Shown: in pieces, positions 20,041-55,124 of the stretch
How the letters are laid out: the number at the start of each line of letters is the position of its first letter
How positions within the stretch are numbered: the stretch's first letter is position 1
NCBI GenBank assembly: GCA_017437095.1
Contig: JAFSBW010000035.1
Coordinates: 1 to 55,124 of the forward strand
DNA length: 55,124 bases
Direction: 5' to 3'
Source: Oscillospiraceae bacterium
Lineage (GTDB): Bacteria; Bacillota; Clostridia; Oscillospirales; Oscillospiraceae
Notes under the pieces: generated by a model
The model's database searches: none
Told to the model about the DNA's origin: nothing
What the model saw: the letters and a program-made list of their open reading frames with translations, nothing else
Program-made: the position numbers and the translations under genes

Positions 20041-20120
20041 TAAGGCTTCTTGCGACTGACGGAAATTGTGGAGCACCACAGGGGACCAGGAAGTTTTTTC
20101 AATGCCGACCGTCTGGGCGT
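20041..20120 (+). promoter_or_regulatory. ZTP (pfl) riboswitch
   Basis: The leader contains the conserved pfl-motif cores: GCGACTGACGG, a hairpin around GTGGAGCACCAC, then GGGGACC, and downstream GCCGACCGTCTGGGC. The class binds ZMP/ZTP, intermediates that pile up when 10-formyl-tetrahydrofolate is short. The last GGGC of the aptamer is also the first strand of the terminator at 20115, so ligand binding should block termination and switch the purine genes on. Confidence 0.9.
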
Positions 20121-20154
20121 ATTTAGCTTTTATGGGCTAAGTACGCCCTTTTTT
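20115..20154 (+). terminator. Riboswitch-controlled terminator
   Basis: GGGCGTATTTAGC (20115-20127) pairs with GCTAAGTACGCCC (20136-20148), one G-T wobble, then six T. It overlaps the 3' end of the ZTP aptamer. Confidence 0.9.
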
Positions 20155-50062: not shown

Positions 50063-50087
50063 GAAGCCCGGAGACAACTCCGGGCTT
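50063..50087 (+). repeat. Left copy of a duplicated terminator hairpin
   Basis: GAAGCCCGGAG, ACA, CTCCGGGCTT-type hairpin of 25 bp, identical to 50342-50366. No T-tract follows here because the 254-bp element begins at the next base. Confidence 0.88.
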
Positions 50088-50341
50088 CAGTCTGTCGAAA
50101 AAGTATTTTTCGACAGACTGTCAGAGGTCAAGAAAGCCACAAAGACAAGCAAACCGCACTCGTCGGCGTACAGGTGGTACGGTAGAGGGCGGTTTGCGCA
50201 GTAAGTCAAAATGCCTTGCGAAGCAAGCTTTTTCCCTTCATCCTAAGCAAGTGTTTTGTTTAAAACAAGCTACAGTCCTGAAAATTCACTCCAAACTGCT
50301 CAAAATTGCATTTTGACGGTTTGGGGCTTTATTGACACTCT
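50088..50341. mobile_element. 254-bp non-coding element (copy 1), MITE-like
   Basis: The element starts with a perfect 15-bp hairpin (50088-50102 / 50106-50120), has an internal cruciform bounded by GCAAACCGC and GCGGTTTGC, and ends in GACACTCT. Its two ends are imperfect inverted repeats (11 of 15). It is flanked by identical 25-bp copies of the upstream terminator hairpin and has a second, inverted copy at 54895-55124 with 9 differences over about 225 bases. No credible protein is encoded. This stretch fills the gap between the kinase gene and the scpA promoter. Confidence 0.85.
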
Positions 50342-50370
50342 GAAGCCCGGAGACAACTCCGGGCTTTTCC
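50342..50370 (+). terminator. Right copy of the hairpin, with its T-tract
   Basis: 25-bp hairpin identical to 50063-50087, followed by TTTT; presumably the functional terminator of the upstream gene. Confidence 0.85.
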
Positions 50371-54893: not shown

Positions 54894-54894
54894 C

Positions 54895-55124
54895 AGAGTG
54901 TCGATAAAGCCCCAAACCGTCAAAATGCAATTTTGAGCAGTTTGGAGCGAATTTCCAGAACTGTAGCTTATTTTAAACAAGACACTTGCTTAGAATGAAG
55001 CGAAAAAGCTTGCTTCGCAAGGCATTTTGACTTACTGCGCAAACCGCCCTCTACCGTACCACCTGTACGCCGACGAGTGCGGTTTGCTTGTCTTTGTGGC
55101 TTTCTCGACCTCTGACAGTCTGTC
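54895..55124. mobile_element. Non-coding MITE-like element (copy 2, inverted, cut by the window end)
   Basis: The reverse complement matches 50112-50341 with 9 differences over about 225 bases, including the GCAAACCGC/GCGGTTTGC cruciform. Two of the substitutions lie in a small stem (TTGTTT/AAACAA) and keep pairing through G-T wobbles. The element continues past the window. Nothing coding is seen here. Confidence 0.85.

Follow-up and report, generated by a model that had tools for sequence, protein, structure and literature searches.

Introduction

On linear DNA, DDE transposases work with a fixed, short stagger; in insertion sequence (IS) catalogues, the direct-repeat lengths of the IS1182 family range widely. 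For IS1272, a member of this family, insertion has been reported to delete or replace a hairpin, with no target duplication (Wan and co-workers, PMC5678879, in the sections accessible to us), and hairpin deletion is likewise reported in the accessible sections of Furi and co-workers (PMC4923244). Duplication of a whole stem-loop figures in the former paper, as far as those sections go, as the hypothetical pathway b of Fig. 13 (PMC5678879). Here we describe a short, noncoding mobile element lying between two copies of one terminator hairpin in a 55,124-nucleotide stretch of an Oscillospiraceae draft genome (contig JAFSBW010000035.1 of assembly GCA_017437095.1, positions 1 to 55,124; the whole stretch is hereafter called the window), together with its copies and relatives. 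In part of the IS1182 family, insertion frequently duplicates the whole hairpin, so that a hypothetical pathway becomes an observed and frequent one. More surprising than the insertion and the duplicated hairpin is the fold of the element, which is conserved across the bacterial order.

The window element and its copies

Comparison of copies sets the limits of the window element at 50088 to 50342 on the plus strand (255 bp, reading CAG...CTG). It lies between two copies of a 24-nt palindrome, AAGCCCGGAG-ACAA-CTCCGGGCTT, the left and right terminator hairpins at 50064 to 50087 and 50343 to 50366 (both plus strand). An earlier note on the window, made from its letters alone, had proposed an element of 254 bp (50088 to 50341) inserted between 25-bp hairpin copies; the insertion between hairpins stands, and the lengths are corrected to 255 bp and 24 nt. 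The two 25-nt flanks (50063 to 50087 and 50342 to 50366) are present and identical as described, the 25th base common to both, a G, being a coincidence at this site. Other features pointed out at that time were found again: T residues of the original terminator follow the right hairpin copy only, with two beyond the duplicated unit and none after the left copy; a perfect 15-bp hairpin (50088 to 50120, plus strand) opens the element; and the ends are imperfect inverted repeats, CAGTCTGTCGAAAAAG on the left (50088 to 50103, plus strand) and CAGAGTGTCRATAAAG on the right (50327 to 50342, CAGAGTGTCAATAAAG as read on the minus strand). The opening hairpin is made up of the left end and an inverted copy of the left end, and changes in its stem are compensated between species. 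No listed open reading frame (ORF) of at least 60 aa lies wholly within the element, which in being short, without coding capacity, multi-copy and bounded by inverted repeats has the properties of a miniature inverted-repeat transposable element (MITE).

The genome is a draft of 85 contigs, 77% complete, in which the joint end pattern gave 38 exact matches as against none in the reversed control. The element was found at 32 places, ten complete and 22 at contig ends, which corresponds to 21 to 32 copies, some contig-end places being two halves of one copy. All ten complete copies, each on a single contig, have a site-specific hairpin on both flanks, and the ten hairpins differ from one another. 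Five pairs of contig ends could be matched by their hairpins when read by eye: L022/L015, L025/L028, L021/L027, L014/L024 and L017/L029, the last two pairs differing slightly. The second copy in the window (54894 to 55124, minus strand) is broken off by the contig end and has its own, different hairpin alongside. With 22 of the 32 places stopping at a contig end of a draft genome, the flanking hairpin might be suspected of being part of the element or an artefact of assembly; we give this practically no credence, as the hairpins vary by site and the pattern recurs in public assemblies, in plasmid and phage records and in a viral contig.

Element matches occur in 13 of 61 genomes of the genus, the present one included, and the 52 elements that were measured span 135 to 267 bp, none of them being gene-sized. 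A second MITE type in the same genome (L083, contig C85, near 11900) has similar ends, a different core and a duplicated hairpin with its loop inverted. When an autonomous partner was sought in this genome by the end pattern, only element ends turned up apart from three other matches, namely one single end, one without an adjacent hairpin and the second-type element.

Duplication of the whole hairpin

Duplication was assessed in 73 cases with both ends readable. Of these, 52 are elements of the genus, one is the second-type element and 20 are insertion sequences of the IS1182 family (19 of the 80 public-genome loci described below, plus L088); insertion sequence loci were left out when their second end lay beyond the contig or had diverged too far. 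The same hairpin was present on both flanks in 67 of the 73. Sixty passed a fixed threshold (44 of the 52 elements, the single second-type one and 15 insertion sequences) and seven were added by reading: L060, L118, L119, L128 and L179, with small changes, the tandem L125, and L173, in which an element is fused to an insertion sequence. By direct match, 57 of the 60 true pairs reached the threshold compared with none of 3540 mismatched left/right pairs (maximum 2). The remaining three (L010, L083 and L178) matched in inverted form only, and in the control for this match none of 2652 cross pairs formed from the 52 elements passed (maximum 6). In 44 of the 60 cases, which were direct, unambiguous and free of gaps, the duplication measured 21 to 41 nt (median 30), and its length followed that of the hairpin as determined on the left flank only (r = 0.95, n = 44), the two being equal in 26. 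At L178, a 64-nt perfect palindrome is present on both sides. The foot of the hairpin falls exactly on the element junction in 40 of the 60.

Outside the genus, one hairpin was found on both flanks in 18 of 24 element copies, by a score for which the maximum of 552 cross pairs was 14 and true pairs reached at least 15, L316 only barely. The insertion with duplication of the hairpin put forward in the earlier note is thus supported in its own genome (10/10), in the test set (67/73) and beyond the genus (18/24), and the comparison of flanks across copies that the note had suggested gave the same hairpin on both sides in most of them.

Some loci depart from the usual arrangement of terminal hairpins. 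At L125, two elements stand in tandem inside one hairpin pair, and the second has no 5' hairpin of its own, as if this had been replaced or lost via unequal recombination. L316, a family-level copy, has an unrelated hairpin in the 5' terminal position. Among IMG/VR viral contigs, the core pattern found two: L385, a copy with duplicated hairpins, and L386, where the folded core (at about 600-900) is bordered by other terminal repeats. The terminal-hairpin pattern gave no match in the viral contigs.

Empty sites in relatives

The window element is preceded by a 566-aa ORF, which we take to be kinase-like, and followed by a 272-aa ORF, presumably scpA-like. In 20 distinct relatives, a single locus contained both neighbour genes (12 of the 29 loci of one search and 10 of the 19 of another, with two genomes in both). 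In four of them (L152, L156, L157 and L165), the kinase and scpA genes are adjacent, with a gap of 128-131 bp that contains one hairpin. The window gap is 404 bp, and removal of the element and one duplicated unit (404 - 255 - 24) leaves 125 bp, to be compared with the 128-131 bp of these four. The other relatives comprise L270 with a gap of 162 bp, L255 with a gap of 88 bp and no hairpin, and 14 with spacers of 483-1186 bp. The script for duplicated hairpins missed the filled window site (L142), and the window-site result rests on reading. In one of the 14 relatives with a longer spacer, the genome G042 (L150/L257), two loop-inverted hairpins, GGGAGGGTCA(T/A)TGACCCTCCC, lie 115 bp apart beside scpA, the window element being absent; this pair belongs to something else, perhaps another small repeat.

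The second site adjoins, on the downstream side, a gene that is presumably phosphofructokinase-like. A duplicated hairpin was found here in none of 23 relatives (420 bases each; four had no hairpin at all and one short locus was left out), and the filled copy of the present genome was detected. The search for a single-hairpin empty site proposed in the earlier note accordingly gave single hairpins at the window site and no doubled ones at the second, in relatives that are other species (the best scpA DNA match among 136 genus genomes is 78% identical). The element thus shows, as a MITE should, both a target duplication and empty sites, the latter in other species only.

These sites bear on the possibility that an element replaced a hairpin in the manner of IS1272, beside terminators that had been doubled beforehand. 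At L125 one copy may have taken the place of another's terminal hairpin, and G042 does have two hairpins and no element. Such an origin is nevertheless most improbable in view of the single hairpin in the four window-site relatives and the lack of any duplicated one in the 23 at the second site, and it would need doubled, site-specific hairpins at dozens of unrelated sites. Removal of a hairpin of the IS1272 type with no target duplication was also considered and was rejected, the hairpin being duplicated in 67 of the 73 test cases.

Related insertion sequences of the IS1182 family

The DUF772 domain was found in 15 of the 61 genomes of the genus, the present one not being among them. Some of these loci have ends of the form CAG(C/T)TTGTCAAAAAA...TTCTTTGACAGACTG, or close to it, with a spacing of about 1.5 kb, and the hairpin is duplicated at L088, L095 and L099 and degenerate in L097; L090 and L101, which belong to another IS1182 subgroup, have no such ends. 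The transposase of the insertion sequences matches NF033551 IS1182 (388.8 bits, cut-off 270) as well as DDE_Tnp_1_6 and DUF772. Their ends, seen both in the genus and in named public genomes, are near-identical but not identical to those of the window element, which in this way has its ends in common with autonomous elements, as is usual for a MITE. In the scan of named public genomes, 80 of 97 loci were kept, most of them titled Oscillospiraceae, and of the 20 insertion sequences in which both ends were readable, 17 had the same hairpin on both sides. L172, also titled Oscillospiraceae, and L099 of the genus are identical in their protein and, as far as shown, in their flanks. At L173, an element and an IS1182 insertion sequence are fused as one unit, the outer ends of which share one hairpin. 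The arrangement extends to other taxa: of 11 chosen IS1182 loci from plasmid and phage records, six are bracketed by the duplicated hairpin (L273, L275, L276, L278, L279 and L281, from Lactococcus, Streptococcus phages and Providencia).

A conserved fold

Twenty-six of the 52 element copies, from several species, fold into one structure of 62 pairs with 98.4% of cells paired, and 24 of the 62 pairs have changes on both sides. The structure includes the closing stem P1, the 5' strand of which (50122 to 50135, plus strand) pairs with the right end (50328 to 50342), and a core stem-loop P3/P4 (50149 to 50197, plus strand) with the strongly conserved internal loop GUCGG / GUA. None of 500 shuffles, which correct only partly for relatedness, came as high in paired cells, compensated pairs, compensated cells or covariation score; pair types were unremarkable (45 of 500). 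Among 394 genomes of the order, a model of the fold detected the element in 32 (E <= 1e-10); these 32 come from 11 families and 16 of the 168 genera. Of the 62 pairs, 51 are compensated in the order-wide alignment, which was fitted to the model and whose 31 rows comprise 30 elements and a short partial match. An unfitted alignment of 13 sequences, folded anew, gave 38 pairs, 26 of them compensated, and recovered the same stems. By these alignments, compensatory changes go beyond the controls, as is looked for in a structured RNA.

It could be argued that the fold is a mere by-product of symmetric transposase-binding ends, with no functional structure in either RNA or single-stranded DNA, because the 5' hairpin and P1 involve the ends and transposase binding could keep their arms alike. 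We regard this as improbable: stems P3 and P5, located away from the ends, are heavily compensated order-wide (P3, 11 of 12 pairs; P5, 7 of 7; model-fitted alignment), and the same stems come back in the unfitted alignment. The core fold is likely to be selected as a single strand, probably as RNA. Because the fold is strongly conserved, with compensatory changes across the order, the window element is more than a decayed insertion sequence. The role of the fold most likely concerns the mobility or expression of the element itself.

Because G-T mismatch cells outnumber A-C cells (44 vs 7, and 58 vs 17 in 30 rows order-wide), the comparison suggests that the plus strand is the one that folds, as RNA or single-stranded DNA, with the caveat that folding programs accept G-U and not A-C; the excess is not found in every stem (P6, 4 vs 7). 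One promoter-like site was found in the element region, on the minus strand, where 0.6 were expected. The elements show no preferred orientation with respect to the terminator (T>A in 16, A>T in 19 and a tie in 9; n = 44), which gives no support for steady reading of the plus strand from the upstream gene. In Rfam, no match above the gathering score was obtained for six element loci. Elsewhere in the window, away from the element, a ZMP/ZTP riboswitch at 20042 to 20125 (plus strand; 64.6 bits, gathering score 39) was alone in exceeding its gathering score.

Proposed mechanism of insertion

We consider it likely that the window element is a structured MITE inserted via IS1182-type strand transfer at both feet of an extruded hairpin. 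The terminator palindrome would extrude as a cruciform, and the transposase would recognise the four-way junction rather than a sequence. The 3' ends of the element would then be joined to both strands, at the foot of each hairpin arm, and gap filling would leave one hairpin on either side. The feet of the junction are adjacent at any arm length, and a single enzyme geometry could therefore yield duplications of 21-64 nt. As the downstream hairpin copy retains the T-tract, the terminator is expected to stay intact, at little cost to the host. The transposase would most likely be supplied in trans, perhaps transiently.

Several points speak against this mechanism. The hairpins differ between the two sides in six of the 73 test cases (L036, L116, L136, L182, L209 and L199, the last with a right flank of only 35 nt before the contig end); in a swapped-partner test of L036, its right hairpin was found just once in its own draft genome. 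Six of the 24 copies outside the genus are likewise unmatched (L317, L319, L320, L363, L365 and L369), and a clear direct duplication is lacking at five of the 11 loci chosen in other taxa (L272, which is cut at the record start, L274, L277, L280 and L282, which has an inverted hairpin copy). Plain fill-in does not account for the inversion of the loop in L009 and L010 (two of the ten complete copies in the present genome), L083, L371 and probably L180; loop inversion may be a record of template switching or of cruciform processing. An IS1182 transposase above the cut-off was detected in none of the 26 element-bearing genomes, with partial or low-scoring matches in seven; two of these, in G029 and G632, lie at a contig edge and were maybe cut by assembly, and drafts lose repeats. 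The single-contig genome G531 has two low-scoring transposase stretches only. Finally, in a sample of 300 genomes of the family, the 12 with a strong element match (E <= 1e-10) and the 32 with the transposase clade do not overlap, which is weak evidence given that about 1.3 would be expected by chance. Weaker model matches in this sample, most of them 50-75 nt long, were not counted as the element; they account for 27 of the 39 genomes with a match, and six of these 27 have the transposase clade.

The missing transposase could mean that the helper is not of the IS1182 type and that another transposase family, or an RNA-based route using the folded transcript, moves the element, its end resemblance then being due to ancestry or convergence. 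The fold, unneeded for a passive insertion sequence derivative, is kept in 11 families, and the wobble pairs favour the plus strand, subject to the preference of the programs for G-U noted above. We nonetheless judge such a helper unlikely: the ends and the unusual target rule are both common to IS1182 elements, L173 is a compound of MITE and insertion sequence, and none of the 52 measured elements is gene-sized. Strand transfer by an IS1182-type enzyme on an extruded hairpin is the reading that we retain. More tentatively, it is possible that a folded RNA or single strand of about 250 nt, present order-wide, needs its structure for its own spread and inserts at four-way junctions, so that terminator hairpins of 21-64 nt are duplicated whole and termination is preserved.

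Comparison with known systems

A duplication whose length is set by the target fold, from 21 to 64 nt, fits poorly with a fixed DDE stagger on linear DNA and is to be expected if an extruded cruciform is attacked. It offers a sequence-level, testable footprint of hairpin extrusion in living cells and shows a route for landing in terminators without destroying them. The bcr1-type repeats of the Bacillus cereus group are also mobile and have a conserved RNA fold; they differ in sequence and have a short, fixed target duplication. In the literature searched, accessible in part, no description of a structured mobile element of the present sort was found, and no report of whole-hairpin duplication was recognised beyond the hypothetical pathway (PMC5678879), although mention elsewhere is possible.

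The earlier note had drawn a comparison with IS1272. This holds for the ends and the target rule, which match the IS1182 family, but not for the fate of the hairpin. IS1272 and TnSha1, IS1182-family elements of staphylococci with the same transposase family as the autonomous relatives of the window element, resemble it in targeting hairpins or terminators by structure and not by sequence; from the accessible accounts, they delete or replace the hairpin, whereas the window element duplicates it whole. REP-targeting insertion sequences such as ISPsy8 and ISRm22 also insert in palindromes, but cut inside them and have direct repeats of 3 or 6 bp according to the accessible part of their description (PMC1525189). 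MITEPye1, an IS1182-related MITE of Paracoccus yeei, is like the window element short, gene-free and foldable, with IS1182-like ends; it differs in its length of 159 bp, its 4-bp direct repeats and its one to three copies per chromosome, and the available portion of its description makes no mention of hairpin duplication (PMC11578231). The IS1182 elements of Lactococcus, Streptococcus phages and Providencia are flanked by a duplicated hairpin just as the window element is (6 of 11 loci), and differ from it in carrying a transposase gene and in their length of about 1.5-1.6 kb.
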